Under the pieces are notes generated by a model. It saw only the letters and a list, made by a program, of their open reading frames with translations, was not told the DNA's origin and did not search any database. Position numbers and translations under genes: made by a program. DNA of 64,000 nucleotides, taken from contig JAJYYK010000006.1 in NCBI GenBank assembly GCA_021801025.1, positions 62,001-126,000 of the forward strand, read 5' to 3'. Positions 16,789-54,073 of the stretch are shown one piece after another. The stretch comes from Pseudomonadota bacterium. GTDB taxonomy: Bacteria > Pseudomonadota > Gammaproteobacteria > Burkholderiales > Sulfuriferulaceae. Positions within the stretch are counted from its first letter, which is position 1, and every line of letters starts with the position of its first letter.

Positions 16789-17808
16789 ATGATGATTATT
16801 GTAATGAGCCCAGGTGCCACTGAACAACAGATTGAAGCTGTCGTAAAAAAAATAAAAGAATATGGTTGCGAGGCCAATATATCGCGAGGAGTGGAGCGCA
16901 CGCTGATTGGCGCGATTGGCGATGAGCGCCAGATTAATCAGGAGTTGATCGATTCGTTAAGCGGCGTGGAACAATCCATGCATATCGTCAAACCCTACAA
17001 AATCGTGACCCGTGAATGGCATAAAGAAAACACTGTGGTGGATATCGGCGGCGTGCCGGTGGGTGGAAAAACAGTTCAGGTTATCGCCGGCCCGTGTTCG
17101 GTAGAGACGCAGCCACAAATGGATGCTGCGGCACGCGCCGTCAAAGTGGCAGGTTGCCGTTTGATGCGCGGCGGTGCTTTCAAACCGCGCAGCAGTCCTT
17201 ATGCATTCCAGGGAACAGGTATAGAGGGTCTGGAAATGTTCCGTCGTGCTGCGGATGAACAAGGGTTGCCCATTGTGACGGAATTGATGGATGTGCGCAT
17301 GTTGGACACTTTTCTGGAATGGAATGTGGATGCCATCCAGATTGGTACCCGCAATATGCAGAATTTTGATCTGCTCAAGGAAGTGGGACGTGTCAACAAG
17401 CCCGTTATTTTAAAACGGGGCATGTCAGCGACCATTTCAGAATGGCTCATGGCGGCGGAATACATTGCTGCGGGCGGTAACCACAATATTATTTTCTGCG
17501 AGCGCGGAATTCGTACGTTTGAGACAGCTTATCGCAATGTGCTGGATGTCACCGCTATCGCGGTCCTGAAGAAAGAAACCCACTTGCCGGTGATTGTCGA
17601 TCCTTCCCATGCAGGCGGAAAAGCCTGGATGGTGCCTGCATTGTCGCGGGCGGCCATTGCGGCAGGTGCCGATGGCTTGCTCGTAGAAATGCATCCCACG
17701 CCATGTGAAGCATGGTGCGACGCAGACCAGGCATTGACGCCGGAAGAGTTAATCGACTTAATGGGTGAGCTGGGTGGTATCGCGAAAGTGATTGGTCGGG
17801 ATATTTGA
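16789..17808 (+). CDS. aroF: 3-deoxy-7-phosphoheptulonate synthase, type I-beta
   Basis: This enzyme condenses phosphoenolpyruvate and erythrose-4-phosphate, the first step of aromatic amino-acid synthesis. The 339 residues comprise an N-terminal ferredoxin-like regulatory domain (about 1-70; MMIIVMSPGATEQQIEAV) and a TIM barrel. Barrel motifs are VIAGPCSVET, FKPRSSPYAFQG, VILKRGMSAT and VDPSHAGGK. The N-terminal domain marks the I-beta subgroup, known from Thermotoga, where it mediates Tyr/Phe feedback. A second ATG three bases downstream is an equally possible start. The intervening MITE means it may need its own promoter. Confidence 0.94.
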   Translation: MMIIVMSPGATEQQIEAVVKKIKEYGCEANISRGVERTLIGAIGDERQINQELIDSLSGVEQSMHIVKPYKIVTREWHKENTVVDIGGVPVGGKTVQVIAGPCSVETQPQMDAAARAVKVAGCRLMRGGAFKPRSSPYAFQGTGIEGLEMFRRAADEQGLPIVTELMDVRMLDTFLEWNVDAIQIGTRNMQNFDLLKEVGRVNKPVILKRGMSATISEWLMAAEYIAAGGNHNIIFCERGIRTFETAYRNVLDVTAIAVLKKETHLPVIVDPSHAGGKAWMVPALSRAAIAAGADGLLVEMHPTPCEAWCDADQALTPEELIDLMGELGGIAKVIGRDI

Positions 17809-17822
17809 TTTCCAGGCCGCCC

Positions 17823-18734
17823 ATGATGGAAACGCCCTTGCCGCTCATTCCCCCCATTTCCCGCTTGTCGATTTTTGGTGTGGGACTGATCGGGGGGTCA
17901 CTTTCCCTGGCACTGAAAGCCCAAGGTATGGTGGGCGAAGTGGTTGGAGTAGGCCGTTCGCCATCAAATATGCAGTGGGCATTGGAACATGGCTTGATTG
18001 ATCGCATCTGTAGTGATCCTGCCGCTGCTGTCAACGATGCGGAAATCGTGGTCCTGGCCATGCCAGTCGGACAGATGGCTGCAGTGATGCGCGACATCGC
18101 ACCGTATGTGCGCCCTGGCACATTGATTACCGATGTGGGCAGTACCAAACAGGATGTGGCGGCGCTCATGCGTGAATATCTGGCGCCGCATTTGGCATGC
18201 TGCGTGCCGGCTCATCCCGTTGCGGGCGCTGAATTGAGTGGTGCGCGTGCAGCCCGTGCCGATTTGTATCAGGCGCGAAATCTGGTGTTGACACCTCTGG
18301 CGGAAACTCAGCCAGCTGCCCTTGCCCGCATCAGCGCGATGTGGAAGGCTTGTGGCGCGCAGGTCACTCAAATGAGTCCCATGGAACATGATGCGGTGTT
18401 TGCAGCAGTTAGCCATCTGCCGCATATCCTGGCCTATGCACTGGTGGATATGCTGGCTGCTCGCGATAATGCGGAGGAATTGTTTGGTTTTGCAGCCAGT
18501 GGCTTTCGGGATTTTACCCGGATTGCTGCCAGTAGTCCGGAAATGTGGCGTGACATTGCCCTCGCGAATCGCGCTGCGTTATTGCATGAAATGGACGCCT
18601 ATTTGGTGACGCTGTCAGCATTGCGTGAGGCGCTGGCCCAAGGTGAGGGGGCGACCTTGTTGAGTGCATTTGAGCGAGCCAGTGCCGCGAGGCAGAACTG
18701 GCAGCATGCCCATGTTAACCCGGATTTTGCATAA
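17823..18734 (+). CDS. tyrA: Prephenate dehydrogenase
   Basis: The 303-residue NAD(P)-dependent enzyme oxidises prephenate to 4-hydroxyphenylpyruvate for tyrosine synthesis. The Rossmann motif GVGLIGGS is at about 19-26. The catalytic-region motif is PAHPVAGAELSGA, and SHLPHILAYALVDML lies in the helical dimer domain. Two adjacent ATGs (17823, 17826) are possible starts, 14 nt after aroF. The last codons and the TAA stop (18732-18734) lie within the left terminal repeat of a palindromic element, so the C-terminus NPDFA is repeat-derived. In many relatives aroA, cmk and rpsA follow; here folA does. Confidence 0.93.
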   Translation: MMETPLPLIPPISRLSIFGVGLIGGSLSLALKAQGMVGEVVGVGRSPSNMQWALEHGLIDRICSDPAAAVNDAEIVVLAMPVGQMAAVMRDIAPYVRPGTLITDVGSTKQDVAALMREYLAPHLACCVPAHPVAGAELSGARAARADLYQARNLVLTPLAETQPAALARISAMWKACGAQVTQMSPMEHDAVFAAVSHLPHILAYALVDMLAARDNAEELFGFAASGFRDFTRIAASSPEMWRDIALANRAALLHEMDAYLVTLSALREALAQGEGATLLSAFERASAARQNWQHAHVNPDFA

Positions 18735-18882
18735 ATTGACACGCGCCCTCGCTTGTCTATTGATTGATATAAAAGATTTTATTCAGTCGGGCGTATGAAT
18801 CACTATGCCACGCCTTCTCAAAACTTCCCTATCAATCAATATCCTGCGCAATCATCACGCGAATTTATGCAAAATCCGGGTT
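18716..18882. mobile_element. Palindromic element with 22-bp ends
   Basis: The left end TAACCCGGATTTTGCATAAA continuing TT (18716-18737) is inverted as 18862-18882, differing only at the last base. A second, nested inverted repeat, ATTGATTGAT (18759-18768) and ATCAATCAAT (18831-18840), lies inside. Solo or degenerate ends occur at 36446-36467 and 53709-53730. The 167-bp unit has no plausible gene and looks like a non-autonomous mobile element inserted at the 3' end of tyrA. Confidence 0.75.
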
Positions 18883-18948
18883 TGTGTGTTAATGTTTTTT
18901 TGATTTTTGCGTCGAACCATGACCCTTTGCGTGGCGTAAAAAACCGGG

Positions 18949-19434
18949 TTAGCGGCGTTCGTACACCACAAAAGCATAATGACACTGTTCATTATGATGA
19001 GTTTGGCGCGATGTTTCGTGCCACAAACTGGTGTCTACTTCAGGAAACCAGGCATCCCCTTCTGCAATATCCAGCATGACTTCGGTTAAATAGAGTCGTT
19101 GGGCGTAAGACATGGCTTGCTGGTAAATTTGTGCGCCGCCAATCACAAAAATTTCATCTTCTTCTGCGCAGAGTGAAATGGCTTCAGGGATGTCGTGCGC
19201 AATGAGACAATTTTCTGTCTGAAAGAGCGTGTCGCGCGTCAAGATGATATTGGTACGGTTGGGCAGTGGGCGACCAAGTGATTCATAAGTCTTCCGCCCC
19301 ATGATAATTGGGTGTCCCAGCGTTAATTGTTTGAAATAACGTAAATCCTCTGGTAAACGCCAGGGCAGGGTGTTGCGGATACCGATGACCCCGTTCTGTG
19401 CGACTGCAGCGATGAGCGATAGGGTTTGTGGCAT
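18949..19434 (-). CDS. folA: Dihydrofolate reductase
   Basis: The 161-residue enzyme reduces dihydrofolate with NADPH. Conserved features are GVIGIRNTLPWRLPEDLRYF (Met20-type loop and the active-site acid), IIMGRKTYESLGRPLPNR and IFVIGGAQIY. The length matches chromosomal FolA (about 160), not plasmid DfrB. It is transcribed toward tyrA and its 3' end lies 66 nt from the palindromic element. In many betaproteobacteria folA pairs with thyA; thyA is not next to it here. Confidence 0.95.
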   Translation of the reverse strand: MPQTLSLIAAVAQNGVIGIRNTLPWRLPEDLRYFKQLTLGHPIIMGRKTYESLGRPLPNRTNIILTRDTLFQTENCLIAHDIPEAISLCAEEDEIFVIGGAQIYQQAMSYAQRLYLTEVMLDIAEGDAWFPEVDTSLWHETSRQTHHNEQCHYAFVVYERR

Positions 19435-36445: not shown

Positions 36446-36467
36446 AATTGATGCAAAATCCGGGTTA
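36446..36467. repeat. Solo copy of the palindromic-element end
   Basis: This 22-nt site equals the inverted end of the element at 18716-18882 with one mismatch (AATTGATGCAAAATCCGGGT then TA). A partial opposite end, GCATAAATT (36418-36426), lies 20 bp to its left, so it may be a deletion remnant of the same element. It sits between uvrC and pgsA. Confidence 0.65.
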
Positions 36468-53708: not shown

Positions 53709-53730
53709 TATCCCGGATTTTGCATAAATT
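53709..53730. repeat. Solo copy of the palindromic-element end
   Basis: TATCCCGGATTTTGCATAAA then TT matches the left end of the element at 18716 with one mismatch. The similarity continues loosely for about 25 bases (AACACCTGCCATTGC against GACACGCGCCCTCGC). No partner end is seen on the other side; another repeat starts 50 bp away. Confidence 0.65.
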
Positions 53731-53781
53731 AACACCTGCCATTGCGCACCTGCTATTTGGGCAACCGTTTTTATCCTTTTC

Positions 53782-53882
53782 CCTTGCTGGTTTAAAACCC
53801 CGGCCTTCAGGTCGGCAGGAGCGCCGAACCCCGCTTTGACTAAATATCCACCGGCCTGAAGGCCGGTGACCTCATTGCTGGC
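53782..53882. repeat. Dispersed GC-rich palindromic repeat, copy 2
   Basis: This copy matches 5647-5727, with about 20 additional bases in the centre (TTTGACTAAATATCCACCGG). The palindromes CCGGCCTTCAGGTCGG and ACCGGCCTGAAGGCCGGT face each other. It resembles REP-type elements of intergenic regions. Confidence 0.75.
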
Positions 53883-54073
53883 GAGTTGGCGCTGCCTGTT
53901 AGCTCCCCGCTTACCTGTTTGGGTTTGATGTGAGAGATGAATCATTGCACCGTGCTTTCATAGAATCTGTTCAGGCACACAATACGTTGTTCAATGATTC
54001 CGTAGACGCGGGTGATCATTCGGATCAGAATACGCAAATAACACTATTTGATTAATCCTTAAAAGGAACGGTT

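Follow-up and report, generated by a model that had tools for sequence, protein, structure and literature searches.

How does the gene for a conserved enzyme come to take its last codons and its stop from a palindrome? The question is raised by tyrA in the window (the whole 64,000-nt stretch of DNA that we analysed), where the coding sequence runs into a palindromic element. An initial annotation had read this in-frame stop as an adaptation for inserting in gene ends. The features of the locus are as follows:

17805-18734, + strand: tyrA (prephenate/arogenate dehydrogenase), ending AAC CCG GAT TTT GCA TAA
18715-18718, unstranded: left half of the target site, TTAA (YTAR), which gives the AA of codon AAC; evidence, the G004 empty site and flanks such as TTAA/TTAA at other copies
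18719-18880, unstranded: complete MITE (IS1380-type, non-autonomous) of 162 bp; evidence, perfect TIRs, further copies and the G004 empty site
18719-18737, + strand: left TIR, CCCGGATTTTGCATAAATT, holding the TAA (18732-18734) that serves tyrA
18758-18769, + strand: inner hairpin arm TATTGATTGATA; evidence, inverted-repeat match and compensatory changes among copies
18830-18841, - strand: inner hairpin arm TATCAATCAATA; evidence as for the other arm
18862-18880, - strand: right TIR, the complement of the left TIR at 100%
18881-18884, unstranded: right half of the target site, decayed, TTTG where TTAA or TTAT is expected (2 of 4 bases match)
18949-19434, - strand: folA (dihydrofolate reductase), convergent to tyrA

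The MITE sits between the 3' ends of tyrA and folA, and is bounded by inverted ends of 21 nt (18717-18737 and 18862-18882) that are 100% complementary, a pattern with an expectation of 0.00 in shuffled windows. With these ends, with dispersed copies and with an empty site in a relative, the palindromic element that had been claimed proves to be real and mobile. Its dimensions needed correction: the annotated 22-bp ends of a 167-bp unit exist as 21-nt ends, and comparison of copies sets the borders at 18719-18880 with 19-bp TIRs, the outermost bases being target duplication. The nested repeat is likewise present at a different length from the 10 bp given, namely 12 nt exact (TATTGATTGATA/TATCAATCAATA) within a longer arm at 82%. 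The genome-wide search for the end sequence that had been proposed returned 22 matches when up to 3 mismatches were allowed, and a reversed-pattern control gave 0. Each of the six frames is closed by a stop no more than 80 nt from the MITE ends, and a transposase gene is absent. The window also holds two more lone or partial MITE ends, at 36446-36466 (-) and 53710-53730 (+), each with 1 mismatch to the 21-nt end.

At least four complete copies are dispersed through the genome to which the window belongs (G000); besides the one at tyrA they lie on contigs C2 (a full copy, 94% identical), C17 (twice) and C19, and are joined by a shortened copy on C12 and by partial copies and lone ends. Overall, MITE copies were found in 11 of the 41 genomes searched (G000 included), mainly in Sulfuriferula, the same genus, and an ORF scan of the complete copies found none spanned by an ORF. 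In a set of 32 complete copies, drawn almost entirely from several genomes within the genus, identical 4-bp flanks were present at 14, compared with a mean of 4.7 when right flanks were shuffled (0 of 20000 shuffles reached 14). These flanks are mostly TTAA, CTAA, CTAG, TTAG and ATAG; at the tyrA copy itself the duplication has decayed, with TTAA on the left and TTTG on the right. Exact 17-mer matches elsewhere in the genome collection have ordinary genes as neighbours and no transposases beside them, and most of these scattered matches, in unrelated phyla, look like chance occurrences.

Some diversity exists within the family. Ends CCCGATCTTTTCATAAATT mark a second subfamily, common in both G009 and G005. 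In copies from these two genomes (L113, L118, L123 and L200-L207) both ends have switched jointly from CCCGGATTTTGC to CCCGATCTTTTC, which suggests either that they became adapted to a different IS1380 transposase or that sequence was exchanged between the arms. Separately, a more abundant repeat of ~110 bp with CCGGCCTTCAGGCCGG-type palindromes (window 53760-53900; also L081, G000 C17:139560-139606) has 47 matching stretches in the genome and occurs inside or fused to MITE copies. At L010 (G000 C10:80801-81016) an exact MITE end at a contig end is followed directly by an apparent IS3-type orfA start (MKQSKFTDSQIIEALKRVEGG...), which may reflect the insertion of an IS into a MITE copy.

The origin of the tyrA end is seen most directly in G004, the closest relative with tyrA, whose TyrA is 94% identical and which has the same tyrA-folA arrangement with the MITE absent. 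Its empty site, CCCATGTTATGTGTTAATG, reads CCCATG-TTAT-GTGTTAATG, and differs from the right-side flank in the window by a small indel or substitution. The G004 TyrA is 94% identical to that of the window up to V and then ends MC*, giving RQNWQHAHVMC* as compared with RQNWQHAHVNPDFA* (HAHV-MC* versus HAHV-NPDFA*), while the window gene reads ...CAT GTT AAC CCG GAT TTT GCA TAA with its stop within the left TIR. Given this empty site, tyrA owes its last codons and its stop to the target duplication and the left TIR, which bears out the initial annotation and adds the target duplication as a second source. G004 shows an apparent second insertion difference upstream of folA (L129), which was left unscored because the flanks in the window have diverged.

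The opposite history, in which NPDFA is ancestral, the palindrome arose by local inverted duplication and the other copies derive from the one at tyrA, would be in keeping with the perfect TIRs of the window copy. It is hardly credible in view of the uninterrupted G004 site with its MC* ending, the other readable tyrA ends and the dispersed copies, whose own target duplications and IS1380 ends mark a transposon family; we regard it as refuted by the empty site together with the target duplications elsewhere. The comparison of TyrA C-termini on which an ancestral tail would have depended found NPDFA in none of the relatives with a readable end (12, plus G004). Their tails differ from one another, and NPDFA thus lies in a non-conserved part of TyrA. 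The G004 site shows that these codons arrived together with the insertion, or would be removed by loss of the element. Transposons of the piggyBac type can leave a TTAA site seamlessly (PMC7351741), so an empty site alone is no proof of ancestral absence; the direction is probably that of insertion, the simplest inference from the absence of the element at the other sampled tyrA ends.

The ends of the MITE point to the transposase that moved it. G009 carries a full IS1380 element (full-length transposase gene, NF033539, E = 2e-114) with a perfect 17-bp TIR, CCTGAATATTGCATAAA, and CTAG on both sides. Further IS1380 elements have ends CCTGAATTTTGCATAAA with CTAG flanks (L240 and L241), CCCGGATATTTCAT with CTAA flanks (L244) and CCCGAATATTTCAC with TTAA flanks (L245), and the end CCCGCATTTCTCAC is also found among IS1380 elements elsewhere in the order, the flanks for the set being CTAG, CTAA or TTAA. 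Two sequences at contig ends (L050 and L089) represent IS1380 5' ends that bear exactly CCCGGATTTTGCATAAA, and are 78-80% identical to the G009 IS1380 over ~150 bp. The MITE TIR agrees with these ends at 14 of 17 bases (G009), 15 of 17 (L240/L241) and 17 of 17 (L050/L089). Since the IS1380 ends are of the same kind and the duplications are the same (CTAG, CTAA and TTAA at IS1380 copies, YTAR at MITE copies), the MITE is best described as IS1380-derived. IS1380 transposases serve as a prokaryotic outgroup to piggyBac (PMC10813416), and the TTAA duplication of piggyBac fits the IS1380-type YTAR duplications of the MITE.

No complete autonomous IS1380 element with the exact 19-bp end was recovered, L050 and L089 both stopping at the contig end. 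A BLAST search with the G009 IS1380 (E <= 1e-3) found IS1380 sequences only and no MITE copy, and the MITE interior is therefore not recognisably derived from that element. In G000 itself a search for the IS1380 transposase (PF13701) gave nothing above cut-off, although G009 of the same genus has one; present mobility in G000 is consequently doubtful, and its MITE copies are probably stranded. The mover could in principle belong to another YTAR-targeting family (IS5/IS427 or IS701-like), for instance the DDE_5 element on contig C3, as G000 has a gene for a DDE_5 transposase and IS5 also duplicates YTAR (PMC10359306). The ends make this very improbable, those of the DDE_5 element (TACTAACGTTTCGGAGTTCA) being unrelated to the MITE TIR, which IS1380 ends match at 14-17 of 17 bases, and the G000 DDE_5 transposase is ruled out as partner on that ground. 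That element (L188, G000 C3:37752-38336) is a single DDE_5 transposase element of ~1.67 kb.

An IS1380 origin bears on the proposal that the stop is carried as an adaptation. This part of the initial annotation is not supported. GCATAA is contained in IS1380 ends themselves, and the motif differs between related IS1380 elements. Upon entry from a YTAR target, frame 0 stops at the TAA or TAG of the duplicated target, and one entry frame meets the TAA 16 nt into the TIR; in the tyrA copy, the frames that the target does not help to close stay open for 21 to 80 nt. Compared with dinucleotide shuffles, stops come only marginally earlier (P = 0.05). Copies do lie at gene 3' ends, as had been supposed, but only one frame in three meets the TIR TAA.

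Four copies sit exactly on the stop of an identifiable gene, and the duplicated YTAR restores that stop. The genes are in G000 an ABC1-kinase (ubiB-like) gene, in G004 an HhH-GPD glycosylase gene, and in G009 a DUF218 gene and a Mur-ligase gene. A gene for an AEC-type transporter (Mem_trans) in G005 has its TGA stop inside the element end. The expected enrichment at exact stops was not borne out when the 32 complete copies (one of them an L226 copy with a -16 overlap) were compared with tolerated YTAR sites: 4/32 against 13% (187/1428, in ~0.8 Mb of these genomes; p = 0.62). Proximity to gene 3' ends fared a little better, 13 of the 32 copies lying within -20 to +15 nt compared with 22% expected (p = 0.016), a weak, post hoc difference based on crude gene calls. 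Since exact-stop copies are at the YTAR chance level, the association with stop codons would seem to be mostly a by-product of target choice and of selection against gene disruption. Three apparent cases of a C-terminus encoded by the element were not counted as demonstrated: L103, which has no Pfam family, L081, with a weak single TIR, and L226, where an N run adjoins the gene.

The palindrome itself is well preserved. RNA folding gives one long hairpin on either strand (z = -8.0 and -8.2), and across 13 diverse copies 93.6% of long-hairpin cells pair. Pairs changed on both sides number 16, as opposed to 9.6 in shuffles (0/500), with 6 in the two innermost helices, these being counts and not probabilities because the sequences are related. 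The inner arms, for example, switch jointly from TATTGATTGATA/TATCAATCAATA to TTTTGTTTYGTA/TACGAAACAAAA. Judging from such compensatory changes across copies, the full-length palindrome is maintained in the family, by selection or by arm-to-arm exchange.

Such a hairpin invites the idea of a selected 3'-end module, kept at gene ends (e.g. at the convergent tyrA/folA) for its stop and its strong bidirectional hairpin, which could serve as an mRNA 3'-end stabiliser, a terminator or an RNase III site. The very stable fold on both strands, the pairing kept through compensatory changes and the excess of copies near gene 3' ends all agree with it. We nevertheless consider it unlikely, in that insertions on exact stops occur at the chance level, a transposase that recognises both ends is itself expected to make the terminal helix covary, and the rest could stem from gene conversion between the arms. 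Moreover, no terminator-like site (a hairpin with a T run, the criterion for an intrinsic terminator) and no Rfam match was found in the element, and a complete copy in G009 (L064, 3406-3567) truncates a flavodoxin-fold reductase gene, replacing its C-terminal part with ~26 element-encoded residues. Slightly less likely still is a portable gene-end cassette, in which targeting to YTAR at or near stops, restoration of the stop by YTAR or TIR, and a covarying hairpin would together form a conserved bidirectional mRNA 3'-end element.

We therefore return to a mobile element as the preferred reading, and consider how it relates to known systems. Like MITEs in general (PMC10969869) it is short, multi-copy and without transposase, has TIRs and a target duplication, forms a hairpin and is mostly intergenic, and it adds an insertion that is polymorphic between close relatives; in place of the TA dinucleotide usual for MITEs of bacteria, it has a 4-bp YTAR duplication, and its ends are IS1380-type. 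With the IS1380 family (NF033539/PF13701; piggyBac-related) it shares the TIR sequence and the 4-bp YTAR target and duplications, but the tyrA element is only 162 bp and lacks a transposase, and the autonomous partner in the same genome that is usual, and not required, for IS1380-derived elements was not found. The MITEs QMITE1 and QMITE2 of Coxiella also overlap the 3' ends of functional genes, by 1-50 bp and including ubiB, and in one strain EnhC takes its last 33 residues from QMITE2 (PMC5896051); they belong to another sequence family, whereas the tyrA element also gives a stop codon and has an empty site. ISPsp10 (IS5 family, IS427 group; PMC4133298) inserts just upstream of TAA and takes its stop from the target site, a stop that serves its own transposase, whereas in the tyrA MITE family it is the host gene that uses the stop, from target or element. 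No IS1380-derived MITE described in Sulfuriferula was found in the literature searched, and as far as that literature shows the family is new. The type of event is already known, since 3'-end overlaps by QMITEs and a target-supplied stop in ISPsp10 have been described, and the tyrA locus is a well-documented example and not a new kind of element.

Taken together, it is very probable that an IS1380-type transposase brought a 162-bp MITE into the final codons of tyrA, where the MITE supplies the stop. The transposase, now missing from G000, would have acted in trans, recognising CCCGGATTTTGCATAAA ends, inserting at YTAR and duplicating it. At tyrA the target would have been TTAT or TTAA a few bases ahead of the old stop, and the reading frame would then enter the TIR in the single phase that meets TAA, after CCG GAT TTT GCA. 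TyrA would thereby have lost MC and gained NPDFA in its non-conserved tail, an insertion that was presumably neutral and was tolerated.

For TyrA, the NPDFA tail should not be taken as part of the biology of the enzyme. For the family, a YTAR-targeting transposase hits stop codons often (~13% of tolerated sites) and regenerates stops through its own target duplication, for which an adapted stop within the element is not needed. The window and G004 provide a clean filled and empty pair, in which a MITE has rewritten the C-terminus and stop codon of a conserved enzyme.
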